From Sthenelais limicola (lineage: Eukaryota; Annelida; Polychaeta; Phyllodocida; Sigalionidae), in NCBI GenBank assembly GCA_942159475.1, contig OW804099.1, positions 9,749,954-9,813,953 of the forward strand: DNA of 64,000 nucleotides, written 5' to 3'. A program made the translations under genes and the position numbers. Within the stretch, counting starts at the first letter, position 1; the number at the start of each line of letters is the position of its first letter. Below are positions 4,449-64,000 of the stretch, one piece after another. Under the pieces are notes generated by a model. That model did not search any database and was not told where the DNA came from. It worked only from the letters and a program-made list of their open reading frames with translations.

Positions 4449-4620
4449 ATGAGTCATAAGTCGCAAAATGCATATTTTTAAAGGTCATTTATTCACAAGA
4501 TCTCCTTTTGGGAATGTTTTCATTTTAGGAGTATCTAGTCAGATAGGTCTTATGAATACATGAACCAAATTTCAGGATAGTGTGTTAAATATATATTCAT
4601 TTTTATTTCCATAAAATAAA
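4449..4620 (+). mobile_element. MITE-2, truncated copy
   Basis: It begins with the inner inverted repeat ATGAGTCATAAGTCGC and then the diagnostic 'cacaagatctc' and 'aaatttcagga' blocks. The right half is missing. A duplicate lies at 5849-6020. Confidence 0.8.
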
Positions 4621-5848: not shown

Positions 5849-6020
5849 ATGAGTCATAAGTCGCAAAATGCATATTTTTAAAGGTCATTTATTCACAAGA
5901 TCTCCTTTTGGGAATGTTTTCATTTTAGGAGTATCTAGTCAGATAGGTCTTATGAATACATGAACCAAATTTCAGGATAGTGTGTTAAATATATATTCAT
6001 TTTTATTTCCATAAAATAAA
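5849..6020 (+). mobile_element. MITE-2, truncated copy (duplicate)
   Basis: Same as 4449-4620, within the second 1,400-bp unit. Confidence 0.8.
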
Positions 6021-47200: not shown

Positions 47201-50200
47201 GCAGTGTGTGTAATGAATGCATCTTCTTCAGAGTGTGACACAACGTGGATATACAGGCGGCATCCATCCTCACATTCACCAACCTGGTGAAATATTAGTT
47301 ATACTTTTATTACAAACAGAAGCCATTGTACATTTAATCACATTAATAAAGCACATGTCCACCTGGTCAATGTTCTCATGCGTGCTTCTCAACAATAAAC
47401 TAATATTATACAAAATCTACTCGATATATACACAATAAGTTCTGTAATATCACAGAAATATATCCCTTATTCATTACCAAGATTCACTAATTTAACAGCA
47501 ACTTCAAAAGTATCATTAAATGAACTTTTACCAGCGTTACCAGAAGACATAACCTTCAGATATGATATACATCCATTCACATCATATCATCTTTCCATCC
47601 ATTTTCTATGCTTGATTTTCATGCATTAATAATTATTTTTGCCAAATATAATCTTTCACTTCCTTACAATACCAATCTTTGCCACCATTAATTCAATACA
47701 CTTCTCTGAGAAACCCAATTCAAATTTTTATCTTAAGTGTACGATAAAGATATTTTTATTGCACTCTACTTCGCATATATAGATAGAACCTAATAATAAT
47801 GTGGTACGGTGGACACTATTGCACTGTCCAAGATGTTTGGTTTTTTGTGGTTACCAAAAAAACAAACACCGAGGACAGTGCAATAATGTCTCAAGTACTA
47901 CATTCAAATTTAGGTTCTATATCTACTCCCACGTTGCTATGTATAAGTATATAGCTGTGTACTGGGGGGTTGAAGAGCAAATGACAATGTCATACCACAG
48001 TCTTTGAACTGGTACAACTGACCACACTACTCCCGCCCATACAAATAGCATGTGGTACATACACCAACGTGTGGTAAAATAAATATTCATATATGAGAAT
48101 AATATTACCACTCCTCACCTAAAGCTTACAAGGTTCTGCTGCAGTGCGTTCATCATGAAGATGATGGCGTTGATGTCCACCAGAGTGAGTCTTGTGTTCT
48201 CTATACACATCTCTCCATCTTTACACACTTCACTGGAGACCTCCTTAGCTATGTCCTCCCTCTGGGTCTCATGAACCACTTGTATCACTTCAAACTGGCT
48301 CTTGGATCCCTAGTGGACACACATATGCTTTAATTATGCTGGAATTATTCAGGGTGTCTTGCAGAGAAAAATATACTGTTGCCTTACCTCCTTATATAGA
48401 ATTTTTATTCAGACTAATATAAGTACAGAATCGGGCTTGAGCCTCTACGAGTAGATCTCCTGGTCAGTCCTTAAGAACATAAATTAATGATACAGAATAC
48501 AATACATACCCCTAATGGTCGATTAGAACCTGATGTTGTAGGGGGGGCCGGGTGTATGCGTTCTTAGGGACAAACCAAGACGGAACGCCGAGGTTTGTCC
48601 CTAAGAACACATACACCCGCGCACCCCTACAATGGAAGGATCTAATTGCTTTAGTCTGGCATTGTTGGGATCCTCAAACACTTTCCAACCACCAACAATA
48701 TTGTGAACAGTTGTTACAAATAAGATACTTACGGCAGACAACAACTATTTATCGGTACCTGAACACTACCACCCCTATCATGTGACCCGTCCTCCGTCCA
48801 CACACTGGCCTCGCCGCCCACGCTAGAAACGCACTCAACCGCATCGGCTACGAAGTCTACACGCACACAGCAGAACCCAAGATCCCAACAATTCAAGACT
48901 AAAGACTAACAATCTGTTTGGCTATACTACCTTTATTTTGTAGTATGAGATTTGTAACCTTGGTTTATACTATACCGCTCTGGTTATACCAGGGATATCT
49001 TTAACTTTACAATAATGGATTTTCCGTTACATTAAATTTACATTACATTCTGTTCATGTTCATAACATACTTGGAATTTGATTGTTTACCGTGGTCGAAT
49101 TATTAATTACAGCAGACAGCAGATAGGCCATATAAGGGCTCAACCCAGTTTACTATTCTAAATTGTTTAAGAGCACACACAAATATGGCAGGCATATGAG
49201 AAAATTATGTGTCTGTAGTTTTCCAAAATCTAGATTTATCTTGTGTATAATCTGTTTATCTAAACACACTCAAACAGGCTCAATGATGCTTAGATCTGTA
49301 TATGTTTTAAATCTAAATGTTGTGCATTGTAGATGACATGTGCAAGACCAACTTAATCTTGCTAATGTAATGGTTTATAAAATTTCTTTAAAAGTAACTA
49401 TGATATAATAGTTATTTTTAATCTTAAATATGATTTTGGTAGGGCATTGAATGCCACATGAATGAATTATCTTAAAGTACTTAGAGAAAGAGAAACAAAC
49501 TCGCCTTTAGCATTTGTGTCACTAGGAGCCCCTCTACATCAGCTTGGATGTGTCCACTGGTGGAATCTATGCACAGACCATACAGCAATAGCCTCGCCAT
49601 ACTGAAGCGCGGCAGCTGCCACATCTTCTCAACTATTGTGTTTCAGGAAAATGAGTCACAAGTCGCAAAATTGATATTTTTCAAAGTGTTTTCTTACAAG
49701 ATCTCTGGTTGAAATGTTCTGATTTTTTAGGGGTTAGCACTTGTTGTCATATAAATCCATGTACCACATTTCAGGACATTGTATAAAATATATCCTTTGG
49801 TTTTGAAGGCCTCCGTATGGAGTATATTTAGTTACTTTACTGGCAATTACCCATCCAGAAACATTGCAAACTTTGTTTTTTCAAAAATAAATATATCAAA
49901 CTTAAAATATATGAATTACTTATTAGGTCTCTAGTGTTTACTATCATTGGAATCAGCTCGATCTCCTCTTTTTAAAGATGGTGACATCTCAAAATCCATA
50001 TTTTGCGACTTATGACTCATTTTACTAAAACGGATCACCTATGTGTTCCAGCGTGTGTTTGTCTGTGGAGCTCAGGTGAAGCATAGCCAGGTACTCTTGG
50101 ATGCTGGGGTGTACAAACTCAGTCATCTCCACACCAGTTGCGGCTTTACCTCCGCCATCCCTCGCCAACAGGATCCCAGATTTAATGAAGAGGTCAACTT

Positions 50201-53200
50201 AAACAACATACAAAATTGGAATGATGCTTAGAGAAAAGTTTCATAATCTTCATTCTTTCATTATTTCATTTTCAACGCCATAAAGGAAATATGTGACCGA
50301 CCTAATAGGGGATTTGCATGGCCGCCAGTTTTTGAATCTTAATTCATTTTTGAGAGGATTGGCGAAGTTGAATTGTATATTTTCAGAAAATCTGACCCAT
50401 ATACACTGTATTTAATGCCCATACCAAACAAATAAACATATCTTAAAAGGCAGCTTAGCTTTTATAATTATGGTGTTTGATTATTATTCTGAATGAAATG
50501 TTCATGAAAGGAAAGGTTACAGTCACACCAACTTTCAACTGGTCCAAGATTAACTTTATTGTAATCTTCCTCATCCAATACCACTGAAGGCAACTGCTGG
50601 TAGATAACCTTCTCCACCAGACCCAGGAAGGCCAGTCGGCACAGTGCAGGCAGGTAGGGCTTGACTATTATATCTGCATCTGCACAGCGCTCAAAATATT
50701 TCTGCAAACAGGAGTGCGGTGTTTGTAACTGTTCAATCCAATTTGTGAAATGAATATTATATTTACACAATTTAGGGATCAATATCTGATCCATTTGAGG
50801 AAAATGAGTCATATTTGAAAAGAGATCAACCCAATTCCAATGATAGTAAACACTAGGACACCTAATAGGTATTTTTATATTTTAAGTTTGATATTAATTT
50901 TCTATTTAAAAGAAAAGTTTGCAATGTTTCTGGATGGGTAACTGCCAGTAAAGGAACTAAATATACTCCATATAAAGGCTTTCAAAACGCAAGGATGTAT
51001 CTAATACAATATCGTCCTGAAATGTGTTACACAGATTTATTACAATAAGCGCTAAACCACCTAAAAATCAGAACATTCCAATAAAGAGATCTTGTAAAAA
51101 AAACCTTTGAGAAATATCAATTGTGCAACATATATATCAATACTTATGGCATATGCCAGCTTATATTCCCTGAACAAAGATTTGTCAAAAAAAAAGATAA
51201 CAGAAAAGGAAAGAAATGTCTACCTGCAGGAGATAAGCAGTGACGGTTGTGTAGGTGGTGAGGTCCTCCACTGGGATGAGCTGCTCCTCAGTCTGCATGA
51301 GTGCACACAAGAAAGCCATGGGTGGCACAGACATAATTAAACTGTCACAATACTTCCCTCTCTTCCTTCTCTTTACATTTACATTCTCATCTTGTACGCG
51401 CAGATAAATGAACTTGACAACTGTTTTCTGGCTCAGGCCCACCATTTCCAACACTTTATCACACCTCAGTGTAGACAGTCCATGAAATGACCTAGAAGGG
51501 GACATATAAATCACAGGTGAATGAACCAAAACTCGTAAGGGTGAACAGGGTGCTGGCTTTGCACCAGCCTTTATTAAGGATGAACACAAGAAAGAAAGTT
51601 TTCAACATGAGTCCATGGAAGCTCCGGCCGAATTGACGGTAGTCTAGTCCTGAATGGAGGTGCCTGGGCCGGTTGCCACAACAGAAGGGTTAGCAACGGA
51701 AGGCAGGCAAGGCCCACGCCGAATTTATATATATGTATATGCATATACACCACATATAAAGCAATCATACCATTTAGAGTATGACCTTTTCCTCAGTGAA
51801 TCTGGAGGCTCAACACAGATGAGAAGACTGAAGCTTCATCAAATATGGTCTGTGACTAGTCTGGGCTGTAAATAACCCAGATCACTCTAATCAAGTGTAA
51901 CATTTTGTCATATATTATTTTGTAGTGATTCGCTCTCCCGACCCCTTCAATAAACAAAAGTCAACAAATAAGCTACCTGCTATGTTTCTGGTTTATTCCA
52001 TGTTACTTAAACAGGTTAGATTCCTTATATATCTGGCTGAATTCAGCGGTTGAATAGGTTGAATCCAAAGCGACTAAAGGTATTAATTCCCCAAGGTTTG
52101 GTGGCTAAAAGCCCACACACACAGCCACGATTTCGGCCCACGAATTGGCCTCACGAATGTTCGTGGTTAAAAATCTGTAAAATGTAAAATCGTGGCATGA
52201 AATTCGTGGCAGTTTTGCTTGCCACGAATAATCGTGAAAAGTCACGAATTTTCGTGCGCAAGTTCGTGAGCCATTTTTCGTCAATTTCTGACCCGCACCT
52301 CCACGAATTTCACTGTCCACGAATTTTTTTTTTTCGTGGATGCCGATTTTTTTTCTAAGTCCAAATAATTTTAGTGATTCGTGGCTGTGTGCGTATGGTC
52401 ACGAATGTTCGTGGCTTCATCATTACTGTCTACGACAGTTCGTGGATGCTGCCACGACAATCGACTATAGTCGATTGTCGTGGCAGCATCCACGAACTGT
52501 CGTGGCGGCAAGGGATAATAGTTCAACACGAAACAGTAGATGGCGTAAAAATCGATTTTCGGCCTTGACCTTGCGAAAGGAGAATGACGCGAACAAGGAG
52601 CGCCCAAGTTCCCGCAGAGCCAAAGGTAGGTCTAACTGATGGTTCTACAATTTATTATAAGGTCATAACTGTATGTGTAATGAATGTAGATTGGGGATGA
52701 CCTATACGTAATTCTGGGGGTGTTTGTCCATGCGATATTGAGTAATTAAGCACAAAAGTTCGGACTCGTGCGAGAACTGTCATGGCCGCGTTGGTGTGGT
52801 ACATTCGCTTATGCTATGAATCCTTTCGTAACCAGCCTGTTTATGTGCTATCGGCTCGTGGATGATCACGAGTTCACATGCTGTGGGCATTTACTATACT
52901 TACGGTGGTGTGTAATGTGTGTAATGTCTCATTTGTTACCTAGGCGAGGGTTACCAAGCGTAAACTCAAGAAGCCTGGCCAAAAGGAAAATGTTAGCAGT
53001 CCGTCGACCAACAAGACGAAGCGGGGCAGTACTCTAGGGGTGCCTCTCAAGGCCACCAACAGAGACAGGGACAGACAAGTAAATACTGCAGGTGTTGGCG
53101 ACACAGCCGACATATGTGAACCTCCACAGGTAATTACATGGTTTACATGTCATTGATCCACTAACATTTTAACTATTATCGATTTCATTAAATAGATTGA

Positions 53201-56200
53201 ATTGAACTCAAGATTATCAATAAAACTTTACTGACAAATATATTGTAACCATTTGTGTGTTCTGTCTGTCTGTTGTGTTTCTAAATGTTTCAATGCAATC
53301 GGTTACAGAAACATGCACGCACCAAGAGTCGGGAGGAAAAGGAAAAACCAGAAGATCAACCAGAAGAAGAAAAAGCAGAAGATCAAGAGTACGTAGCCGA
53401 TAGCCTGGAGGACGCATACAGTGTCTCCGATAGTGAGACTGAAAGAGCAGAAGTTCTCGATGACGATAAGAAAATTACTGCGACAAAACAAACCACCCCC
53501 GGACGGAAGATGGGAAAAGGCAGAAGCACGGTACGCCGACTTGTACCAGAGAAAGTCGAGGATGAGGTGATTGAATCGGTACCAGAGTCTGAGGTTGAGT
53601 CTGTGGAAAATGAGCAGGTTGAGTCAGTCGACGAGGCTGAGGTGGAGCAAGTACAAAAGGTGAAACCAAAGAAAACCAAAGACACGGACCAATGCAAAGA
53701 TACAGGTAGTCCTAAAAAGAGAGGTTTGGATGTTTCTACTGCCAATGAAGTGAAGAAAACACCAACGGTACAGCGTGTTAAGAAGAGTGTGCGTCCCAGC
53801 CACTCACCCCGCTCCAAGGTGTGGACGGAGGAGCAAGAGGTCACTTTATGTGACTTATGGAAGGAATGGCCCAATTTGTACGACAAAAGATCGCCCCATT
53901 ATAAAGACAGATCCTGGAGGGAGCGTGCCTTGGGGAGAATAGCGGTGGAGTTAGAGAAGACAAGTAGGTGTTTTTGACATTTTGCTATAATTCCTTTCCT
54001 ATATTTCATTATTCATCCTTTTGTATTTTTTAATGTTTTTGTTTTGTCTTTTCCTATCTCAACCCATGTTATTAACGTGCTAACCTAAACTACTTGAAAT
54101 GTATTATGAAAGAAGAAGGATGTTCTTTCATCTGTTTTGCCAATTACACATAGACCATCACAATGTTCTAATGTTGCTAACTCACACAATTTCCATACTG
54201 TCTTTGTAGGGGAACAAGTCTGGAAACAGATTACCTCGCTCAGGTCCACCTATGGTCGGATAAGGAGGCAGGTCAACGTTTCAGGTGCTGGTGACCCAAA
54301 AAAGAACAAGAAGATAAGCGACCGAAATCGGCATATATACCAAATATGTCGGTTTCTGGAGGAGCACATAAAACAAAATCAAACGGATGATAATTTAGAT
54401 ACGGTGAGTTGAATGCAACTTTTATAATTTTGGCGTTTTCCAAACAGTCACTCACGATTTAAAAATGCACATTTTTAGCCGCTCTTATAACAATGAAACA
54501 AGGGAATAGCTGTCTTTGACAGTGGGTTGCCTGAACATCTTTTGGTATGAAAAATTGTTAAAAAACGACTGTTGGATAAGTATTATTGGAAATATATCAT
54601 GAAGCATACATTGTAATAATCATGTAACCATGTTTACATTTTCAGAGTGGAGGTGAGGAAAGTCCTTCGGAGGACGAAGATGAACATGACCGAGTGAAGA
54701 AGGGTGACCCCCCGTTGCGTGAGCTGGTAACTTTGCAAGAAGAAAGAAAGAAACGTGCCCGCAGTATACACGTGAGCGGCGATGAGTCGGACCAGGGAGA
54801 CAAGGGCGATTTAGACTATGAACCTGGGGATGACTTGGAGTCACCACCTAACCGGAAAGGAAAGATCTCCAGAAGTAATTCGCGCTCAAGCTCCACCCCA
54901 GGATCACAAGTAATTACAGTACGTGAGCCAATAGCCTCCACCTCCACCGGAATAACACACATGGACTCAGACACGGATGAAAGCTTTTTCGGCTGTAAAT
55001 CGAAAGTTGTAAGGACCAATTCCAAAGATGACAATACTACCTCAAAAAAAGGTAAACCTGAAGGTGATAAGAAAAAAAATGTGGTGGAGAGTAAGCCCGA
55101 AAGTAAATCATCCGCCCTGACCTCTGTACTTCAAAATATGGCGAAAGACTATCACCAAGTCGCTGAGAAAATCACGCAGAATGCCACAGTTAATGTTGCT
55201 GAACGTTCAGAGAACATGAAGTGGGCCGAATTGTTTGCAGCAAAGATTGACCGCATGCCAGAGCGTGTCCAGGCACGCTTTAAATTGCATGCGGACGGTA
55301 TTGCCCTGGATGCGATTGAAGGGGAGTGGCCTCCGTTGAAATAGAAATTTTATTCCGAAGTAAACATTTTATTTAGAGCCAAATAACCACTTCATGTTCT
55401 CTGAACGTTCTGTTACGCAGCACAGCAAGTTACACTTGTCCGAGTGGTGATTTCTTGTCGTGGCCATTCAGTTTTCCAACCTGTGCCCACAAATATGTGA
55501 AGATGTGACTGAAAAAATTATATAGTTTTCTATGACAACTTTGTCAATGACATAATTAATGTACTCCTCCATGCGGTTCCATAAATATATTGTAGTTTCT
55601 CCAGAGTACATTTTTTAAATTTGTTGTCGACATGTCCGTCTTGTACATTTCAGTACAGGCAGTACATTTCAGAAAATAAGTAACATATCATGTAATGTTA
55701 AATCATTTCCGTGTTTAGTTTTTAAGAGGCAACCTAGCACTTAAAGTCAGATAAATGAACGTGTGATGTATAATTACATTGCGGTTGGGCAATAAATTAA
55801 GAAGGCAGCAAAATAAGCGGCAGCAGACAGATTTATATAGGTAACTGATATTGTCCATTGGTTAGGGAGATTATTTGTCCAACAGTTTTGTTCTGTATTC
55901 GTTTTGTATGAGTTAGTTGTAGTTCTGTAACCTGTAACCTGTAACCTTATAAGGTGCTATATCATTGGGGTTTTGTTCAAATGCGTACAGTATGTGTCAA
56001 AGCATGGGGCCTATTGTACTATGTACGGTTGACTGAGGTTTAGGTTCGACCATTGATTAAAAAGGCAGCAAAACAATTCATGTGACAAGTAAATAAGTGT
56101 TGAGACGTGTGAGTGACCCATATATACGTTACTGATGATTTTGGAGATTATTTTTCAAACGGTTTTGTTCTGTACTGGTTTTGAAGGCGAGTTACATTGT

Positions 56201-59200
56201 ATTAGTTTGTTATAGACTCATAAGTAGTTAGTTATAGACTCAGGATATATTTGAAGAGGACTTATCAAACAGGACTATATTTTTATAACAACATTTTTAT
56301 CAGACGAAGTTATTTGTCGTCGCCTGTCAGTATTTTATAATGTAAGGTGCTATATCATTGTTTATTTCAATGACTTACATCATGTGGCAAAGCATGGGGC
56401 CTATTGTAGTGTGTTAGTTCGACTGAGGTTAACTGAAAATCGTTGTTGGATGAGTAACATAAATAAAAAATTGTTTCAGTTGATAAAGTAGTACCTGTCT
56501 TTTATTTATAATAACTACTAACTACTCACTTCTCGTGTTCTGGACTCTTGTCCACAGTCGGTCATTACATTGACAACGTATGAAAAACAAATTGAACTTT
56601 CATAAATGATCATTTCAATAGCGTACCTTACAATATACAATAAAAACAAGTTAAAACAGTATGACTTAGATTTTCTGGCAAAGCAAGATGCACGCTCTTG
56701 GCAAATGCATTCAAAACCTAAATGTAGGTGAGCATAATAAAATTTGCAAAAATTTTTACCCAATAGCTTTACGTTATGTACAACAAATATTACAGGTATG
56801 AACTCTGCAATAATAAAGAGTCTACATTTCACAGTGCCACCTGATCGTACTGCCAGTCGACAGCCCCAGCGCGCACGAAGTAGTCGGCCAGGTTGTTCCG
56901 CATTTGTTTTGCCGCTGCATATGAGTTCCTCCCAGTCATCCTCTGCAGACCATCAACTTGTGCCACCTGTCTCCAGCCACCAGCATGCAGTACGTGATCA
57001 CTGTCTTCATGGTCGACCATGTTGGGCGCCATGTACTCACGGCCACACCTAGACCGCATGAAATTGTGCAGCACGCACGTGGCCTTCACCACATGGACTG
57101 CCCTTTCAGGTTTCATCCTCAAGTCCCGGCTATATATAGCGAACTTTGCAGAGAGGATGCCGAAGGCATTTTCCACGATTCTGCGGGCTCGCGACAACCG
57201 GTAGTTAAATATTCTCTGCTTGCCTGTCAGTCCCTGGCCAGGGAAGGGTTTCATCAGTCTCGTAGATAACGGAAACGCGTCGTCGCCGACGAGGAAGTAA
57301 CTCAGTTTATCATCCAGTCCAGCATGGTTGGCAGGGGGGGGAATGGACATGGAATTACGTTGAGCAACAAGCTTCCTCTTGAAGCCACAAGAATCCCATA
57401 TCCCACCATCGCATGCACTACCCTCGGCTCCAACATCAATGTACAAGAAGCTGTAATTGGCGTCCACCACTGCCATCAATACAATAGAGAAGAAATTCTT
57501 GTAATTGTGGAAGCGGGACTCGCTCCCAACCGGTTTCCGGATTCGCACATGCTTTCCATCAACTGCACCGATGCAGTGGGGCATGTTCCAACGTTCTTCA
57601 TAGAGCTGTGCGATTTGCAGCCAGCCTTGCTTGGTCTTTGGCACCTACAGCAAAGAGAAGCACATTCATTTCAAATAACAAATATATCCCTATCTATATT
57701 CCCTGAAAGCTGAACAATGTGGATGTAATAGAAGGCTTACACCAATGTCTGTGTTCATGCAAACATCGAAGCGCATATTTCGGGAAAAAGTAATTACAAA
57801 TAGTATGTAATAGACTTGAGTGGTGATTTCTTGTCATGGCCATTTAGTTTTCCAACCTGTGCCCACAAATATGTGAAGATCTGACAGAAAATATTATATA
57901 TTTTTCTATGAAAACATTTTCAATGACATAATTAAGGTACTCTTCCATGCGGTTCCATAAATATACTGTATGTTACAGACACGCCAGTAAGGGTGACTAC
58001 TACACTTAATACCTAACAAATGCAAGTATAATTTACCTTCATAACCAGTGGTTGGAGGACATCATAGAGGGCCCTACACGTCTCATAGACAATCCCCGCA
58101 GTCGTGGTCAGCCCCACCCGGAACTGCTGGTGCAGCGACACAAATCCGTCACCTAAATAAATAAATAATGACATTTAGTCAAATTTATATATATATATAT
58201 ATATATATATAGTATTATTCTGAGTCAAGATCTACATCATATTGTCCAGAAGTGGACACCATCCTCTCACAATGAGTTATTCCTGGAGGGTCCAAGATTA
58301 TAATATAATATTCTAAATACCAGTTTTTTGTAAACATGAAATAAAGATGTACATACTAAGTCCAAATTGGAACATTAAGTAACAACCAATTAGAAAAACC
58401 CAGCCTAGCTCATAAATGCATCTATCTTGCTGTTATACAATCATTTTTTGTATAACAAATGGAGAACAAAGATAGGAAATAAACATCCTTTGACATATAT
58501 TGTTATTGTAAGCCACACTCGGTTAAATTAATAATATGGTACACTTGGAAAATGTGTGCCCGACGTATATAAGTTGAATAATACCAATAGTCAGGTGTAT
58601 GTGGACATATTTACCTAAGCACAGAAAGCGTAACGTGAGGCAGAGGCGAATTTCAGGAGTGATGGCTTTTCTCCAATTCGTGTTCTGTTTAGTGATCCTC
58701 GGCCCGACCAAATCTAACAGTTCCTCAAACACTGTAGGCGGCATGCGAAGCGTACGCATTAGGAGGTTGGTTTCGCCATCCTAATAATATACAAATATCA
58801 CATATAACAATAAAATATAAATTAAATTATAATATACGAAGAAGTTACTGGGGTCAAACAAATTATGCTAGCACATCCGATTAAATTAATATTAAAATTC
58901 CTAAGTGATTGAGACAAGTCAAAACACGAAGGGACACAGATGTTTATATTTGAAGGAGGTTTAATACTTCGATCTATGTTTCGGTCTAACATTCGACCTT
59001 CATCAGGATGAATTAATATTAAATTAACACAAACAAATTATGGAATATTTATTTATCAATACAATATAATAGTCTTGACATAATTATGTAATAATTATGG
59101 ACATAATTATTTATGAACAACTTATCTAACACCGTGAAAGTGCAATCACGAAGGCTGAACTATACTACTGTGTGGACAGTAATACGTTTACAGTAACATA

Positions 59201-62200
59201 TAACCCCTAGCCATTGATGTACAATAGGCATACTTACAATAGGTACTTACATTGAACAGCTCTTGGTACAGATGTACCAAACTGTGGCCATCCTCCTCAT
59301 CGCGCCGCTTCAGCCAGGGCTTCATCCAAATTCGTGTGGCGTTCTCCACATCATCATCATCATCAAGGAATTCAACCGCAACACAGAGAATGGCGGCCAT
59401 TGGGGCATGGAGCGCAGCAAGGAGTTCGTTGTTGGCCATGTGCACCATCTTGAAGTCGAAGTGCCCACGAAGTGCCCGCGCGTTCGAACGACAGAAAGGG
59501 CAAAAATTATTAGCTCATTCGAGAGCTGCTCTTTACCCCCTCTAGCGACTACTCATGACGTTTTTAAAAATCGTGGGAAGCATTGAAACCAAATTCGTGG
59601 TGACTACTAGCTGCGAATTCGTGGCAGTGTGCGCAACGCCGACAAAATTTGACACGAAATCAGAAAAACGTCTGAAATCGTGTATGTGTGCGCATAAATT
59701 TGAACCACGATTTACACAAATAACACCCACGAATTGGTTGAAATTAGATTCACGAGTAATCGTGAGTCCCAATTTCGTGGCAGATTTTAATTCGTGGCTG
59801 TGTGTGTGGGCTTTAAGGCTGTTTGTGGGGAAATAACGGCCAAGGCACGCTAGGGCTGGCGGGCCTTGGCTGTTATTTCCCCACAAACAGCCTTAGCCAC
59901 CAAACCTTGGGGAATTAATACCTTAGTCAACGGCCTTTCTACCTCAACCCACAGCTAGTCATATTCCTCTATAGGTCTCAACAGGTGTTATAGAACACTC
60001 AAACATGGACAATACCTCAAAGGAAACATAGAGAATACCTCAAAGGGACAAATGTGTCCATTCATACAAGAGACTTGGATCTCAGTAAGGTACACAAGAA
60101 TAGGCAGAAGGAACAACAATGTTATAATGGGAAATGGGTAATATAAAGGAAAGCAGTTCTCATCCCAGAAGTTTGAACAATTCTCTAAACTCCCAGTATC
60201 CCCAATCTAATGGCAAGGTAGAGAAAGCAATCGGAATAATTAAGACTTTATAAACAAAATGCAAAATGATTAGATACTGACCACAGGTCCCTTAGAGACT
60301 CATGTCGCGTATCAGTGTCTTGAGGAGCAGACCTAGAAACTCGGATGACGGCTGAAGATTCCAAAACATTTCTGTGAACAATGTCTAAGCACCAGTCAAT
60401 TGGCCTCTGCTTCCTATGAATGAAAGGTTTCAGGGACTGTTCTCTCAGGGCTTCTACTCCACCTGGGTACTCGTCTAGCCCATCTGTAATTGTAAGAGTT
60501 TCAGGAAAATGAGTTAAAAGTCGCTAAATTGATATTTTTCAAAGTGTTTTTTTACAGAATCACATTATTGTAATGTTCTAATTTTGGGGCAGTTTATCAC
60601 TAATAGCTATATCAATCAATGTATCAAATTTCAGGGCAATCTATATAATATATCCTTTCGTTTTAAAGGTCCTCATATGGACTGCAGTTAGTTACTTTAC
60701 TGTTTATTGACCCCCAGAAATATTGGAATTTTTTTTTTTCCAAAATTAAAATATCAAACTTAAAATCTAGAAATACCTATTAGATTATTAGACCCATGGT
60801 CCTTGTTAACAATATTGGAACATAACTAAGGGGTACATGATAAGGTAATACACTGATTCTTAGGCTATTTCATTACTTCCTAGATATTTCTCTAGGCTTA
60901 CTATATTTCTTTCTTTCTCTACATGGTTCAGAGTTTACATAAATAACCTGCCCCAACGCCTCTGCCACCCCCATTGTTCCTTCTCCAACCTGGGAAAGTC
61001 CCCACTACTCCTTAAGCCCCAATCTGACCCACATAACAATTTCCAACCACTGTTAGCTTTAAGCCTTTTATTTCCCCAATATTTGTTATAGTAAATTCCT
61101 GTATAACTGTCAATTTAAAGCTCTTAAGGAAGGCAGTGATAGAAAGACCTGTGTGGTTAACTCAGAACTGGCCAACATGATTGTAAACAACATCTGCAAT
61201 AAAAGAATTTTTGAGTTTGAATTTGAATTTGACGTATATCATTCTAGAGTGCCTCTATGAGATACTGATATGATTATTGACTAGCAAATACCCGTGCTAC
61301 GCATGGGACTTGCTAGTGGGACAGTGGGGCCCACATCCTCATCTCTCCTTTTTCCCTCTCCCACCATCTTTCTCTTTCAAGTTTTCTCTATAACTTAGTA
61401 TCTGTATTAACATTCATACCACAAATGGAACCCTGTTTAGATGATTTTGGTCGCTGTTGTTATGTTGCCTGTTCCTGTCCCTGTCCTTGTCCCGATCCCT
61501 CTCCCATTCCTGCTCCCACTCCCACTCCTTCACCTACATTCACTGTGAGTTAATTAGTGGGCGGGTAAATTTCTGTGTGAGAGGTCCCTGTCCTTGTCTC
61601 TGTCTCTGTCCTGCTCCCTCTCCCTCTCTTGTTCCCTCTCCCATTCCCTCTCCCTTTCTTGTTCCCTCTCCCATTCCCACTTTCATTGTCAGGTAATTTG
61701 TGGGCGGATAAATTTCTGAGTGGGCGGGTAAATCTCTGAAATTGTCACTATTGCTCTTCACAGTTTCAGTACCCAGGCGTGGATGAGCGGACATTTGGGT
61801 GCTGCTTAGCAACAGACGTGTGTCATGACCTCAATCCAACCAATATGCAAATTGCCTCATTCTGGTGTAGGGGCACTGATAGGGGATTGTTTTTAGGCAC
61901 CAATGGGGACCCTGGATGGGGGTGTTCAATTTCAACCCATTTCGAACCCATTTATAACCCTGATGTCTTCCAAAAGTGTTAATGAAACATAGCGGAATGG
62001 CTCAGCACCATTTTTGGCAATGTGCATGTGAAATATAATGGAGATCTGGCCGGCAGTTTCTGACAAGATAGGTTCTTTATGGCCCCAAAGACTATTTTAA
62101 TATTATTTAGATTAAGCTTATGATTATATTATTATGCGAGTAAATACGTGTAGCATTAACTTAGGTGTGGACTATGATCATGTGTATGATCATGTGTATG

Positions 62201-64000
62201 AACTTTTCTATGAGTATATTAAGAAAATTTCCATTTCTGTATCATTAGACTATCAGGTGTACCCGCAATTGTTCCCAAATAAATAAAACTTGTGTGTTTG
62301 CTTGCATCAGCCAGGTTACAGTCGGTTGCTACTGGGATTGAATGTGCATGTTGTTGGTGTTTTTGTTCATGTTGTTGGTGTTGTTGAGACTTTTTATGTG
62401 ATGTGTTTCAGGAAAATAAGTGACAAGTCGCAAAAAATGGATTTTGAAATACCAACATATTTGAAAAGATGAGATCAAGCCAATTCCAATGATAGTAAAC
62501 ATTAGGACATCTATTAAATATTTTTAGATTTTAGGTTTATACCCAAAAATCAGAATATATATATAGATCTTGCAAATAAAACACATTGAAAAATATCAAT
62601 TTTGCGAAAATATTTCCATTCATCACTACTCTACTGTAGTCTATGGGAGCTTAAAATACGAGGAAGACTTCAACTGCAAATTTTTTGTCTCCGCAAATCT
62701 TTTTCTCCACAAAATATTTAACGGTGTATGTCATGATTAAATTTTGATTAACATATGGGTCAGATTTTCAGAAAATGTACAATTAGCAGCTATACACATT
62801 TAGGACATTCTGCTAAAGTAGGCTCCAATTTGGTCAATACTAGGTAAATTCAATTATATTTGGCATTGCATTGATTCTAGCAATCTGTTTGGTTAGGTTG
62901 AACTGTATTTTGAACTTTATTTTCGTCTAAAATTTGGGTTATTTGAGAGAATTGTTGAAGTTGAATTGTACATTTTCTGGCGACTTCACAAATATATTGG
63001 AGCACCGAGCAAAATTACCTATGTGGGTCAGATTTTCAGAAAATGTAGAATTGGCAGCTGTACAAATTTAAAAGATTCTGCTAAATCAAGTTGAAAAATG
63101 AAGAATACCGGGTATATCTGAGTATTGGTATCTCATTGGTTTGAAGTATCAGTTCTGTTATGTTAAACTGCATTTTGAAGCTCATTTTTGTCATAAATGT
63201 GGGTTATTTGAGAGGATTTGTGAAGGCGAATTGTACATTTTCTGAAAATCTGACCCATATCAAGTAAGATTTTATTGAGAAGAAATAAAGTCAAAATGCG
63301 AAGTGTACCAATCAAAATCAACATGTGATCCATGGCAGAGAAGAGGGATTTAGCAGTAAATTGACATTCAGGTCTCAGACTGTAGGGGGTTGACATGAGG
63401 AAGTCAACAAAGGATACCAGTCTTCTTCCCTGCGCAGCCAGACTCTTCACATCAAAGAGAAAAACAGCCTTGAACTCTTCAGCCCATTTGCCCTGCGCCC
63501 AGAGCCTCATCAGTTCCTCAATATATGTCATCTGTTTCAGGAAAATGAGTCATAAGTCGCAAAAAATAGATTTTGAGATGCCATTATATTTGAAAAGATG
63601 AGATCGAGCCGATTACTATGATAGTAAACAGTAAACAGTAAAAAGTTTCAAATATTTCTGGGGATCAATAAACAGTGAAGTAACTAAATGTAGTCCATAT
63701 GAGGACCTTTAAAACGAAAGGATATATTACATACATTGTCCTGAAATTTGATACTTCGATTGATATAGCTATAAGTGATAAACTCCCCTAAAATCAGAAC
63801 ATTCAAATAATGTGATCTTGTAAAAAAAACCACTGAAAAATATCATTTTTGCGACTTATGACTCACATATGTGGTCTTTTCAACACCTCCTCGCCCCACT
63901 AGTAGAAAGGGATCGAAAATTTGTGTAGAATAACTATGTGAGGCAATCTCCTTAATCCAATCCACGGAGTAGTCTCCAAAACAGCTGTCATGTGGTTTAT
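22813..64000 (-). CDS. NACHT-LRR (NLR) receptor gene, 17 exons visible, 5' end outside window
   Basis: Intracellular innate-immune or apoptosis-type ATPase receptor. I joined the exons by splice signals and phase: 64000-63867, 63531-63309, 60483-60282, 51491-51224, 50701-~50521, 50197-50039, 49632-49505, 48309-48119, 47283-47200, 45471-45388, 44942-44859, 44167-44075, 28488-28435, 27761-27675, 25128-24978, 23591-23480, 23240-22813 (stop). All junctions keep frame, giving about 886 codons. Landmarks: P-loop-like LLVGRGGVEKTT, Walker B LILIDGLDE split by an intron, sensor-1-like VSRS, winged-helix LPALCRLAFLGLVEK, HPSIQEYLAML, then LRRs. The P-loop has E where the family has G (GxxGxGK). Introns E8/9 to E14/15 are all phase 2. 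The E5 3' end is uncertain (50521 or 50533). NLR families expand in many invertebrates. The C-terminus is not recognised. Confidence 0.85.
23241..23479 (-). mobile_element. MITE-1 that constitutes NLR intron 16 (introner)
   Basis: The whole 239-bp intron is a MITE-1. In the sense direction of the gene it starts GTCAGATTTCTAGAAAATG and ends ...CTGAAAATCTGATCC followed by ATACAG. ATACAG also precedes the element, so it is a target-site duplication. The donor GT comes from the element and the acceptor AG from the duplicated target. Splicing rebuilds ACATACAG|TGAGG, the presumed empty site. Confidence 0.85.
23480..23591 (-). CDS. NLR exon 16: C-terminal extension
   Basis: Reads WGGGEEVRLCIVKKGRAGST then ATLIQLLQEVIQCSTHT. 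It ends ACATACAG|GTCAGA in phase 1, where the GT belongs to a MITE-1 end. The function of this extension is unknown. Confidence 0.8.
23597..23930 (+). mobile_element. MITE-2 in NLR intron 15
   Basis: Most of a MITE-2, with its inverted-repeat end placed directly upstream of the exon-16 acceptor. In the sense direction, CTCATTTTCCTGAAACGCAT and then TTTATAG form the 3' splice site. Confidence 0.85.
23931..24977. other. Rest of NLR intron 15
   Basis: AT-rich intronic sequence. 24000-24060 (AGAGAGAATGGAACGAG ... TTTATTGGACGAGAT) matches the arm of the fold-back element at 46556-46705, so a fragment of that family is present. Confidence 0.5.
24978..25128 (-). CDS. NLR exon 15: end of LRR region
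   Basis: Reads YCDLAGRLTTLMQVPGASRR then VKIITTTCTTELQGSCLKDL, finishing at CACACAG|GTAGGT in phase 0. The acceptor GTCTACAG is strong. Confidence 0.85.
25196..25428. repeat. 58-bp tandem repeat (4 copies) in NLR intron 14
   Basis: Unit contains AATAGGGGAGTTTCATGT, 'cactgcgcatgtct' and 'agtgcatgctgggat'. Copies differ at a few sites. Confidence 0.85.
25429..27460. other. NLR intron 14, mostly unassigned
   Basis: AT-rich. A short hairpin lies at about 25809-25839 (AATGCCTAAGATA and its complement), followed by GTTTGTTTGTTT, which resembles the reverse-oriented tail of a non-LTR element. The minus-strand frame at 27070-27330 has no convincing splice context that fits the gene. Confidence 0.35.
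27461..27640 (+). mobile_element. MITE-2, short copy with both ends
   Basis: Begins GTGATGTGTTTCAGGGAAAT and ends ATTTTCCTAAAACACATCAC. About 180 bp, interior deleted. Confidence 0.85.
27675..27761 (-). CDS. NLR exon 14: LRR, 87 nt
   Basis: Reads YGTRQLLESELMIKRIKVLT then GYPTLKYVR. Acceptor CCGCGCAG, donor CCG|GTAAGT, phase 2 on both sides. Confidence 0.85.
27857..28268 (+). mobile_element. MITE-2 with foreign interior
   Basis: Both ends are intact (GTGATGTGTTTAAGGAAAAT ... CCTGTAACACATCAC), but about 200 bases of the interior do not match other copies. This looks like a nested insertion or a captured segment. Confidence 0.7.
28303..28425 (+). mobile_element. MITE-2 fragment
   Basis: Right-half blocks ('agtatatttagctactttact', 'atatcaaacttaaatatagaaat') without terminal repeat. 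Confidence 0.65.
28435..28488 (-). CDS. NLR exon 13: LRR, 54 nt
   Basis: Reads N|WSEILPHIKWRPSLEKLT. The acceptor (CCGTTAG|CTGGA) is the terminal unit of the 15-kb 46-bp satellite. Donor AC|GTAAGT, phase 2. Confidence 0.8.
28489..43625. repeat. 46-bp satellite, about 15.1 kb, about 330 units, inside NLR intron 12
   Basis: The unit on the + strand is CAATCCAGCTAACAGTGCAT, then CCATATACACTATAAATAAA and GC(AG)TA, 45 or 46 bp depending on one dinucleotide. Variants: ATAT/TTTA, cATcc/cCTcc/cGTcc, tAGACta, AATAGGG, ACAGTTCC. Blocks of about 3.3 kb recur: the variant pattern at 31074-32444 reappears at 34365-35729 and again from 37702. This shows higher-order amplification. Every unit carries AATAAA and TATAAATA on the + strand and TTAG|CTGGA on the gene-sense strand. 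Small minus-strand frames are not coding, since the 45/46 alternation breaks them constantly. Confidence 0.95.
43626..44074. other. 5' part of NLR intron 12 with 27-bp repeats
   Basis: Non-satellite intron sequence. About four degenerate copies of a 27-bp unit (ACTCTAGTCAATGAATAATA...) lie at 43887-43990. Confidence 0.6.
44075..44167 (-). CDS. NLR exon 12: LRR, 93 nt
   Basis: Reads IPMKRVQKEHYEQLLGSKSA then LKNLKDLRIF. Its acceptor TTTTTCAG|C and first ten exonic bases are also the unit of the 22-bp minisatellite immediately upstream. Confidence 0.85.
44163..44395. repeat. 22-bp minisatellite derived from the exon-12 splice acceptor
   Basis: About ten units of GGTATGCTGAAAAAGGGTTA plus two bases. 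On the gene strand each reads TTTTTCAGCATACCTATAAC. The real acceptor is TTTTTCAG|CATACCTATGA, so each unit copies the polypyrimidine tract, the AG and about 10 exonic bases. Confidence 0.9.
44513..44744 (+). mobile_element. MITE-1, full-length, in NLR intron 11
   Basis: TGGGTCAGATTTCTAGAAAA ... TCTGACCCA, with intact ends and the usual interior. Confidence 0.9.
44859..44942 (-). CDS. NLR exon 11: LRR, 84 nt
   Basis: Reads FGIMLMDEHCVSTFCGHLKD then LDTLEIL. Paralogue of exon 9. Acceptor TTCCTTCAG, donor GTAAGT, phase 2. Confidence 0.9.
44943..45387. other. NLR intron 10
   Basis: A GGAATAAAAATC, (TA)n, (A)n sequence at 45322-45361 looks like the 3' end of a retroelement on the + strand. The rest is unassigned. 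Confidence 0.4.
45388..45471 (-). CDS. NLR exon 10: LRR, 84 nt
   Basis: Contains LLMEQMTTYDYSQLFG, then LTNLKDL. It is a clear paralogue of exon 12 (YSQLFG...LTNLKDLR against YEQLLG...LKNLKDLR). Donor AG|GTCAGA, phase 2. Confidence 0.85.
45503..45905 (+). mobile_element. MITE-2, full-length, in NLR intron 9
   Basis: About 400 bp with both ends (TTTTTCAGGAAAATGAGAC ... GTGACTCATTTTCCAGAAAC). It lies about 30 bases upstream of the exon-10 acceptor. Confidence 0.9.
46139..46166. repeat. 28-bp perfect palindrome
   Basis: ATTCATATAGGACG joined to its exact reverse complement, with no spacer. A second short hairpin (GCTTCGCAGAGC / GCGAAGC) follows at 46196-46235. Confidence 0.8.
46556..46705. mobile_element. 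Fold-back MITE (about 150 bp)
   Basis: Arms TATAGAATGG...TCGAAAATTTATTGGAC...GTCCACATAAGCAC pair with the right arm over about 65 bp around a 15-bp loop. A relative lies at 24000-24060. Confidence 0.75.
46925..47170 (-). mobile_element. MITE-2, diverged reverse copy
   Basis: Carries 'tttctgg.t.gatatttactagtaaaggag', 'gatacactgtcttgaaatg' and 'cctttgaa.aaatcactttgaaaata', the reverse complement of MITE-2 interior. The ends are eroded. Confidence 0.65.
47200..47283 (-). CDS. NLR exon 9: LRR, 84 nt
   Basis: 28 codons: LVNVRMDAACISTLCHTLKK then MHSLHTLQ. Same length and phase as exons 10 and 11, and similar in sequence to exon 11. This is the modular LRR exon design. Confidence 0.85.
47781..47924. 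mobile_element. Inverted-repeat element with hairpin core, in NLR intron 8
   Basis: Outer ends AGATAGAACCTAA / TTAGGTTCTATATCT and an inner stem ATTGCACTGTCC with its complement, plus TGTTTGGTTTTTT / AAAAAAACAAACA. Confidence 0.7.
48119..48309 (-). CDS. NLR exon 8: start of LRR region
   Basis: Reads SQFEVIQVVHETQREDIAKE, then LTLVDINAIIFMMNALQQN, like NLR 'cLyEaq ... L.ls..D..al...L'. Donor TTTAG|GTGAGG, phase 2. An internal GTAAGC at 48129 would give phase 0 and break the frame. Confidence 0.85.
48520..48680 (-). mobile_element. Hairpin element H, copy 2, in NLR intron 7
   Basis: Inverted relative to copy 1 (2802-2968) by its flanks. The stem (48536-48631) has largely different arm sequence (GTGTATGCGTTCTTAGGG) but the same loop motif and the same TTGTAGGGG ends. 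The two arms still pair with each other. Confidence 0.75.
48681..49504. other. 5' part of NLR intron 7
   Basis: AT-rich sequence with no supported feature. Confidence 0.35.
49505..49632 (-). CDS. NLR exon 7: post-winged-helix segment
   Basis: Reads EKMWQLPRFSMARLLLYGLC, comparable to NLR 'rFvaGLl'. It is followed by the non-canonical donor AAG|GCGAGT, which is the only choice I see that keeps the phase (0). Confidence 0.75.
49633..50038 (-). mobile_element. MITE-2 that constitutes NLR intron 6 (introner)
   Basis: The intron (406 bp) is one MITE-2. In the sense direction it begins GTGATCCGTTTTAGTAAAAT (element end = donor) and finishes ATTTTCCTGAAACACA + ATAG (target duplicate = acceptor). 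ATAG also precedes the element. Removing it restores CACATAG|TTGAG, in frame. Confidence 0.9.
50039..50197 (-). CDS. NLR exon 6: HPSIQEYLA segment
   Basis: Reads DLFIKSGILLARDGGG, then MTEFVHPSIQEYLAMLHL, the conserved NLR 'sGLL ... F.H.siQEfLAAl' element. It ends CACATAG|GTGATC. That GT is the first base pair of a MITE-2. Confidence 0.9.
50351..50399 (+). mobile_element. MITE-1, right-end remnant, in NLR intron 5
   Basis: 'tgagaggattggcgaagttg' and TCTGACCCA end only. Confidence 0.7.
50521..50701 (-). CDS. NLR exon 5: winged-helix region
   Basis: Reads KYFERCADADIIVKPYLPAL, then CRLAFLGLVEKVIYQ and DEEDYNKVNLGPV, as in NLR 'LC.LA.EGL..K...FdEeDl'. The phase-1 donor is either at 50520 (GTAACC) or at 50532 (GTTGGT). 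Both are weak and both keep frame. Confidence 0.75.
50795..51125 (-). mobile_element. MITE-2 in NLR intron 4
   Basis: Reverse orientation to the copy at 49633. One end reads GAGGAAAATGAGTCATAT and lacks part of the GTCGC core. Confidence 0.75.
51224..51491 (-). CDS. NLR exon 4: C-terminal NACHT helical region
   Basis: Reads W|SFHGLSTLRCDKVLEMVGLS, then MSVPPMAFLCALMQT and LTTYTTVTAYLLQ. These match the NLR pattern 'RCDKVLEILGFS ... SVPV..FLC.... TLTELY..'. Phase 0 donor GTAGAC. Confidence 0.85.
52432..52503. repeat. 72-bp perfect palindrome in the transposon's left end
   Basis: 36 bases starting ACGACAGTTCGTGGATGCTG are followed without spacer by their exact reverse complement. It contains four CGTGG/CCACG motifs. 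Confidence 0.9.
52584..55344 (+). CDS. Harbinger accessory protein with MADF (Myb/SANT-like) and BESS-like regions
   Basis: Five exons joined by GT-AG junctions that keep frame: 52584-52625, 52944-53129, 53309-53963, 54210-54403, 54646-55344 (591 aa). The N-terminal half is charged and low-complexity (E/K-rich). The MADF domain spans exons 3-4 (WTEEQEVTLCDLWKEWPNLY, then WRERALGRIAVELEKT, EQVWKQITSLRSTYGRIRRQ). The C-terminal WAELFAAKIDRMPERVQARF resembles a BESS interaction motif. In PIF/Harbinger elements a Myb-type second protein helps the transposase enter the nucleus and bind DNA. The start at 52584 is the first ATG of the exon with a consensus donor (AAG|GTAGGT). Confidence 0.85.
55345..56828. 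other. Spacer between the two Harbinger genes, with internal duplications
   Basis: Non-coding. 55443-55595 is repeated at 57818-57971 inside a transposase intron. 55796-55910 resembles 56058-56190, and 55955-56040 resembles 56343-56430 ('aaagcatggggcctattgta'). The spacer holds the 3' UTRs of both convergent genes. Confidence 0.75.
56829..59448 (-). CDS. PIF/Harbinger DDE transposase (HARBI1-like nuclease)
   Basis: Four exons: 59448-59251, 58780-58615, 58152-58037, 57644-56829 (stop), 431 aa, all junctions GT-AG and in frame. The N-terminal part (TLRFLCLGDGFVSLHQQFRV) is the helix-turn-helix region usual before the catalytic core. Catalytic residues: D in GAVDGKH, D in VGDDAFPL, E in RRIVENAFG, the DDE triad of the Harbinger nuclease family. 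Length is normal and no disabling mutation is seen. Start: first ATG of exon 1 (MVHMANNELL). An upstream exon cannot be excluded. Confidence 0.9.
58191..58211. repeat. (TA)n microsatellite
   Basis: About ten TA dinucleotides in a transposase intron. Confidence 0.8.
59929..60281. other. 5' part of NLR intron 3
   Basis: No feature recognised. Confidence 0.35.
60282..60483 (-). CDS. NLR exon 3: Walker B to sensor region
   Basis: Completes Walker B (I|DGLDEY) and contains SSAVIRVSRS, equivalent to the 'vTSRP' sensor of NLRs. Acceptor ATTACAG at 60484, donor GTCAGT in phase 2. Confidence 0.85.
60496..60788 (+). mobile_element. MITE-2 at the 3' end of NLR intron 2
   Basis: Left two thirds of a MITE-2. 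Its inverted repeat end (sense strand CATTTTCCTGAAACTCTTAC) runs straight into AATTACAG, the acceptor of exon 3. Confidence 0.85.
60950..61231 (+). mobile_element. Possible non-LTR retrotransposon 3' end
   Basis: The segment ends AATAAAAGAATTTTTGAGTT followed by TGAATTTGAATTTG, a short TTTGAA-type tail. There is no open frame, so the assignment rests on the tail. Confidence 0.35.
61457..61690. repeat. CT-rich low-complexity tract
   Basis: Imperfect CCTGTCC / CCCTCTCCC repeats. The open frames on both strands are compositional. Confidence 0.75.
61691..62397. other. Middle of NLR intron 2
   Basis: No gene seen. A short TGTTGTTGGTG repetition lies at 62350-62385. Confidence 0.35.
62398..62615 (-). 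mobile_element. MITE-2, internally deleted
   Basis: GTGATGTGTTTCAGGAAAAT end, then reverse-strand right half, then 'cattgaaaaatatcaattttgcga'. Confidence 0.8.
62756..62980 (+). mobile_element. MITE-1 in NLR intron 2
   Basis: TGGGTCAGATTTTCAGAAAA start. The right end stops at 'cattttctgg' and lacks the last bases. Confidence 0.85.
63024..63257 (+). mobile_element. MITE-1, full-length, in NLR intron 2
   Basis: Both ends intact, same orientation as 62756-62980 and about 44 bases from it. Confidence 0.9.
63309..63531 (-). CDS. NLR exon 2: NACHT, up to Walker B strand
   Basis: Reads MTYIEELMRLWAQGKWAEEF, then VFLFDVKSL and ...DHMLILI. The first bases (ATGACAT) appear to derive from the end of the MITE-2 inverted repeat. 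The exon ends ATTG|GTACAC in phase 1, a weak donor. Confidence 0.85.
63532..63866 (-). mobile_element. MITE-2 that constitutes NLR intron 1 (introner)
   Basis: The 335-bp intron is one MITE-2. Sense strand: the donor GTGAGTCATAAGTCGC is the inner part of the inverted repeat, brought to the exon edge by loss of about 18 terminal bases. The acceptor is ATTTTCCTGAAACAG, where other copies have AAACAC. The remaining terminal bases (ATGACAT) are exonic. Confidence 0.9.
63867..64000 (-). CDS. NLR exon 1 (partial): NACHT P-loop
   Basis: Reads KPHDSCFGDYSVDWIKEIAS..., then FDPFLLVGRGGVEKTTY, and ends at a phase-0 donor GTGAGT supplied by a MITE-2 end. The single change GGA to GAA would explain the missing P-loop glycine. 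Confidence 0.85.

Follow-up and report, generated by a model that had tools for sequence, protein, structure and literature searches.

Two introns of an NLR gene in the annelid Sthenelais limicola that probably arose from insertions of one MITE family

Results

An NLR gene on the minus strand

The window analysed here is the whole stretch of 64,000 nucleotides from Sthenelais limicola (assembly GCA_942159475.1, contig OW804099.1, positions 9,749,954 to 9,813,953 of the forward strand), and all coordinates refer to it. Of the 1130.6 Mb of the genome, 1126.6 Mb lie on the contigs C1 to C9. The mitochondrial COX1 reads with AGA as serine and ATA as methionine at conserved positions, a code that points to a protostome. 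The window contains, on the minus strand, a gene that we describe with a model of eight exons; introns are numbered from the first exon of this model, and more exons probably lie upstream of it. The spliced model holds a NACHT domain (E 1.1e-10, 42.0 bits at a cut-off of 26.7), by which the gene belongs to the NLR (NACHT) genes, and NLRC4 is among the solved structures that match it (E 4.9e-5). In a protein database search with exons 2-7, none of 3737 candidates was significant (the query joined exons 5 and 6 differently from the later model), and a search of the window against Rfam gave no match. The exons of the model are given below, with the basis of each in brackets.

63867 to 64000, minus strand: exon 1, with the start of the P-loop, extending to 64132 past the window (NACHT domain in the spliced model)
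63309 to 63531, minus strand: exon 2 (comparison with related genes)
60282 to 60483, minus strand: exon 3 (model and comparison of the intron 2 donor)
51224 to 51491, minus strand: exon 4 (model)
50533 to 50701, minus strand: exon 5 (model)
50039 to 50197, minus strand: exon 6 (alignment to 28 fetched related genes, with the outer acceptor at the same place)
49505 to 49632, minus strand: exon 7, closing at a GC donor (alignment to related genes)
48130 to 48309, minus strand: exon 8 (model)

Sequences of one transposon family, MITE-2, cover 100% of intron 1, 99% of intron 6, 62% of intron 4, 18% of intron 2 and 0% of the other three introns. Introns 6 and 1 have the property expected of introners, namely that the element reaches to or near both splice sites. 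In contrast, the fragments in introns 4 and 2 lie away from the intron ends.

50810 to 51133, plus strand: MITE-2 fragment within intron 4
60498 to 60793, minus strand: MITE-2 fragment within intron 2

All eight related genes looked at have the intron 2 donor at this same position. Introns 4, 5 and 7 are common to the fetched loci wherever the match reaches, and intron 3 was seen on its acceptor side only. Intron 7 would begin with GC (AAG/GCGAGT, window 49505), and several related genes have GT there.

The surroundings of the gene contain further repeats. A total of 20 merged MITE-2 stretches are found in 72 kb at the NLR locus, and one of the 29 fetched related-gene loci (about 100 kb) holds one. 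Eight MITE-2 stretches lie in 19 kb around the gene (45504-64601, the window being extended by the sequence L039). Two MITE-2 fragments (4449-4594 and 5849-5994) are exactly 1400 bases apart and have equal match scores, a sign of local duplication. Most of NLR intron 3 is filled by a Harbinger-type element at about 52080-59935, its ends judged by eye, with a DDE_Tnp_4 match (E 2.2e-30, 56829-57644) and a Myb/SANT-like match (E 9.5e-5, 53285-53977, plus strand). A tandem repeat of 45/46 bp is found from about 28340 onwards; it is long, and its hundreds of copies are in register. Upstream of the gene, L039 carries an open frame, LEHMYDWAYLRWNVSWLLKALGETGEKDVERMI, at about window 65169-65486, which may resemble an exon of this NLR gene that encodes a death fold.

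Intron 6 consists of a MITE-2 copy and one target copy

The 406 bases between exons 6 and 7 are made up of a 402-base MITE-2 copy and one ATAG target copy. On the minus strand, the layout is ...CTGGAACACATAG (exon end) / GTGATCCG ... CTGAAACACA ATAG / TTGAGAAGATGTGG (exon start), with the following parts.

50039 to 50042, minus strand: left ATAG target copy (4 bp), which closes exon 6 (sequence)
49637 to 50038, minus strand: MITE-2 copy of subfamily A, whose first two bases, GT, are the donor of intron 6 (K2P 0.063 versus the consensus of 35 copies)
49633 to 49636, minus strand: right ATAG target copy, whose AG is the acceptor of intron 6 (sequence)

The earlier note on this DNA had described 49633-50038 as a complete MITE-2. 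It is indeed a MITE-2 copy with GT and AG ends, but the final four bases of the element (TCAC) are absent; the family end is ...ACACATCAC. As the note had proposed, the sequence has the donor at the element's first base and the acceptor AG inside the duplicated ATAG. The intron is in phase 1 and the codon at the join is G/TT, so that the peptide reads HTLEHI-V-EKMWQ; the frame holds across the join as claimed, but the junction had been given without the valine (LEHI-V-EKMW).

When spliced exons 6 and 7 are compared with the animal's own genome, 53 matches are listed, two of which are the gene itself. Junction 6 lies inside a single match in all 51 others, and the best 28 of these 51, which were fetched, are all ungapped within 8 residues of the junction (one of the 28, L026, carries a stop within the match, and some are near-identical pairs). 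At this place the spliced window gene reads ACACGCTGGAACACATAG TTGAGAAGATGTGG and the related gene L016 reads AACACACTAGAACACATG GTAGAGAAGATGTGG. The outer acceptor of exon 6 is at the same position in many related genes; the donor position also matches where the single exon of the related genes can be traced to its end, and the window gene would use GC there. An intron without MITE-2 at the same site, which the note had named as evidence against its reading, was seen in none of the 51 listed related genes of this genome. The uninterrupted matches (51/51) and ungapped alignments (28/28) therefore indicate that intron 6 was gained by insertion into an ancestral exon, and splicing would give back the empty site as the note had suggested, with exon length restored in all 28 comparisons.

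A second, inverted MITE-2 copy fills intron 1

Beyond the earlier note, the sequence of intron 1 suggests a second MITE-2 intron gain in the same NLR gene.

63867 to 63870, minus strand: left ATAT target duplication of the intron 1 element (sequence)
63532 to 63866, minus strand: intron 1, an inverted MITE-2 of subfamily B within the P-loop exon (sequence compared with the family ends)
63527 to 63531, minus strand: last five bases of the element, ATGAC, retained in exon 2 (sequence)
63523 to 63526, minus strand: right ATAT target duplication (sequence)

The whole element spans 63527-63866 between the two copies of ATAT. The donor, GTGAGT, is the product of an 18-bp deletion close to the element's first end, and the acceptor, CAG, results from a base change within its other end. 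With exons 1 and 2 as the query against the same genome, 62 matches are listed, including two to the gene itself, and the 60 others all cross junction 1. The number of residues between GK[ST] and W is 9 in 20/20 fetched related genes; in the window gene it is 9 at the empty site and 12 after splicing, which rules out an exact restoration of the exon by intron 1. The three added residues, MTY, are encoded by 5 element bases and 4 duplication bases. They stand directly behind the Walker A motif, which in the window gene is GRGGVEKT and not GxxxxGK. The NACHT score is 42.0 bits for the 531-residue model with MTY versus 49.3 bits for a 227-residue model without it, although these models also differ in length.

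For both introns, the empty site is found in related genes, all of which are genes of one genome and include some near-identical pairs. Since introns 1 and 6 are missing in these relatives, and the introns shared with them are not MITE-2 from end to end, the relatives lack exactly the two MITE-2 introns.

The MITE-2 family

A BLAST search of the genome with the intron 6 element, in which 40 of 9313 first-look candidates were scored, found at least 40 further copies that are nearly full-length and 83-91% identical to it; among the 40 listed, 34 end at query position 402, right before the last ATAG. We took 35 full-length copies from 27 loci, picked for likeness to the intron 6 copy. Their consensus is 408 bp long with the ends GTGATCCG...ACACATCAC, which match each other inverted, and 32 of the 35 copies start with GT. 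An exact 4-bp duplication flanks 17 of them (12 ATAT, 4 ATTT and 1 AATT). The perfect end pattern has 19,339 exact matches in the 1.13-Gb genome, and the reversed pattern, used as a control, has 0. MITE-2 is thus short, has terminal inverted repeats and target duplications, and occurs in high copy number, as is typical of a MITE. The intron 6 copy is at K2P 0.063 from its subfamily consensus, where the 35 copies span 0.04-0.20, and the intron 1 copy is at 0.084 from its own, where 15 copies span 0.06-0.33. A literature search brought up no publication that we recognised as treating this family, which may nonetheless be in print.

An NNAG sequence directly follows 82 of the 19,339 perfect MITE-2 ends, far under 1 in 16, and none of the 17 exact duplications ends in AG. 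The idea that MITE-2 target duplications usually offer an AG is therefore rejected for this sample. The NNAG survey was confined to ends that are perfect and of the type seen at intron 6. We fetched 60 of the 82 copies and recognised the left end in 45. An exact duplication is present in nine of these 45, two of which share identical joined frames. None of the 45 has convincing coding flanks. Seven of the joined frames extend for 31 codons or more to either side, and the five of them that were compared with Pfam gave no match; this is a weak test, because Pfam misses exons 6 and 7 alone as well. The dedicated introner family hinted at in the earlier note is thus unsupported by this sample. The similar introns known so far are two introns in one gene, and the same weak survey brought up no convincing exonic copy. 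From these sequences, the use of MITE-2 as an intron looks opportunistic and not built in.

Open frame, base changes and splice sites

If the insertions were not spliced, translation would run into them and reach a stop after 4 residues at intron 6 and after 7 residues at intron 1. The eight-exon model, whose exons were placed by homology, forms an uninterrupted frame of 1593 nt, free of stops and frameshifts. Under simulated neutral decay, such a frame survives in 2.2% of runs at a divergence of 0.04, in 0.3% at 0.063 and in 0.04% at 0.084, a result favoured by the fact that exon borders were chosen open where the splice sites gave a choice. The simulation took its transition share and indel rate from 29 copies and assumed that 70% of indels shift the frame. 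Exons 7 and 8 alone stay open in 49%, 32% and 23% of runs at the same divergences, which proves little.

Changes found only in the window gene are distributed over the three codon positions as 69:56:92, compared with 36:26:56 and 42:37:71 in two related genes. The third-position excess in the window gene is modest overall; it is present in exons 1+2, 6+7 and 8 and absent in exons 4 and 5. It is possible that the NLR gene is under relaxed constraint, of which the crowding of its locus with MITE-2 might be a sign.

To score splice sites, we built a matrix from related genes, using 23 of their donors and 50 of their acceptors. Introns 1 and 6 have donors that equal or exceed just one of these 23 in score, and acceptors at the 10th percentile of the 50. 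Against a background of 1016 GT and 898 AG sequences, 225-326 of the former and 155-193 of the latter reach scores as high or higher. The matrix is crude, since it gives equally low scores to some splice sites of introns that the gene shares with its relatives, among them the donor of intron 2. From the sequence evidence, we infer that introns 1 and 6 are removed by the spliceosome in the living animal and that the gene remains functional.

Discussion

Two insertions with recognisable ends and target duplications, related genes that lack the introns in every listed match, and an open frame are observed at this locus. The explanation that we consider probable is that MITE-2 insertions into NLR exons turned into introns 6 and 1, independently of each other. 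A MITE-2 copy would have landed in a coding exon and duplicated ATAG, its target site. Its terminal GT would then serve as the donor, and the acceptor would be provided by the AG in the duplicated ATAG. Excision of the element together with one target copy, as an intron of phase 1, would bring the exon back to its ancestral length. An independent, inverted insertion would have hit the P-loop exon of the same gene, where splicing through the CAG in the mutated element end would add three codons to the transcript.

A decaying pseudogene with two unspliced MITE-2 exon insertions, in which the terminal GT and AG are coincidental, would also fit several observations, including the altered P-loop, the GC donor at intron 7, the weak splice-site scores, the lack of a third-position excess in exons 4 and 5, and the richness of the locus in transposons. 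We regard it as unlikely, as such a gene would rarely keep 1593 nt over eight homology-placed exons open by chance at any of the three simulated divergences, and the third-position excess in exons 1+2, 6+7 and 8 argues in the same direction. An AG after the insertion would also be a rare coincidence given how few perfect ends are followed by NNAG, although the composition of an exon differs from the usual AT-rich target. There is hardly any probability left for a history in which old introns at both sites were later replaced or filled by MITE-2 and lost from the related genes. MITE-2 is found inside the older introns 2 and 4 of the same gene, which speaks for this history, but the elements in introns 1 and 6 span from splice site to splice site with target duplications in coding sequence, the 51/51 and 60/60 intron-free listed matches would need many losses, and no relative among the related genes of this genome has a non-MITE intron at either site.

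The gain of introns 6 and 1 by MITE-2 insertion could in turn be part of something larger, with MITE-2 as a dedicated introner family that seeds introns across the genome. The GT start of 32/35 sampled copies, two intron-like uses within one gene and the very large size of the family are in line with this. One copy of the NNAG survey, L130, may be a further case, as it has an exact AAAG duplication and its flanks are open for 46 codons on one side and 33 on the other. However, it appears improbable in view of the 0/17 exact duplications ending in AG in the first sample, the lack of convincing coding flanks in the weak NNAG survey, and the MITE-2 match in just one of 29 fetched related NLR loci. 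A more limited proposal, which we put forward tentatively and would not yet favour over its opposite, is that introns have been made by MITE-2 repeatedly in this animal, with splice sites obtained in at least two ways, one through an AG in the target and the other through deleted or mutated element ends. If this is true, a transcript survey would show tens of MITE-2 introns, ranging from raw insertion to refined intron.

If introns 6 and 1 arose from MITE-2 insertions, one MITE family would have given a single gene two introns independently, with the elements in opposite orientations and with two different splice-site solutions, and dozens of intron-free related genes act as controls. In animals, intron gains whose empty site can still be read seem to be rare. 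The locus makes it testable how much alteration a landed transposon must undergo before it is efficiently removed by the spliceosome.

By analogy, the mechanism proposed here is that of introners, which are already known from other organisms. Huff et al. 2016 reportedly described MITE introners of Micromonas and Aureococcus as DNA transposons that bring their own splice site, produce a target duplication and have given rise to introns on a genomic scale. MITE-2 would be similar to these introners in its splice site and target duplication, as far as that account goes, whereas genomic scale is seen there and two introns are seen here.

MITE-like repeats in animal introns are also present in the clam Lucina pectinata, where they lie in hemoglobin introns and promoters (PMC4732748); an end-to-end identity of element and intron as found here is not described in the parts of that paper on which we draw. 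Introner elements of Amoebophrya have inverted repeats, carry short direct repeats where they adjoin the exons, and form mostly non-canonical introns (PMC7789003). According to the sections of that study used here, the MITE-2 introns are like them in having inverted and direct repeats and unlike them in being GT-AG introns.

In the survey of Gozashti et al. 2022 (PMC9860276), cited here for selected parts, an introner is a non-autonomous element that creates an intron by inserting into an exon, and inverted ends and 4-bp duplications occur. Among 835 genomes of animals and land plants, introners were found in just two groups, both of them animal; introner families are sets of similar introns, gene-enriched in most of the genomes (PMC9860276). 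Compared with the introners in these parts of the survey, MITE-2 has two introns in one gene from two subfamilies, and its other sampled copies are without convincing coding flanks. Within the figures considered, both splice-site solutions seen here have a counterpart. The Chrysochromulina introner in Fig. 2C has its own 5' site, a co-opted 3' site and 4-bp duplications (PMC9860276), and intron 6 resembles it in using the element's 5' site and a co-opted 3' site with a 4-bp duplication. The Aureococcus introner in Fig. 2F carries both sites and adds element and duplication bases to the transcript (PMC9860276), and intron 1 resembles it in that element and duplication bases, here 5 + 4, would be kept.
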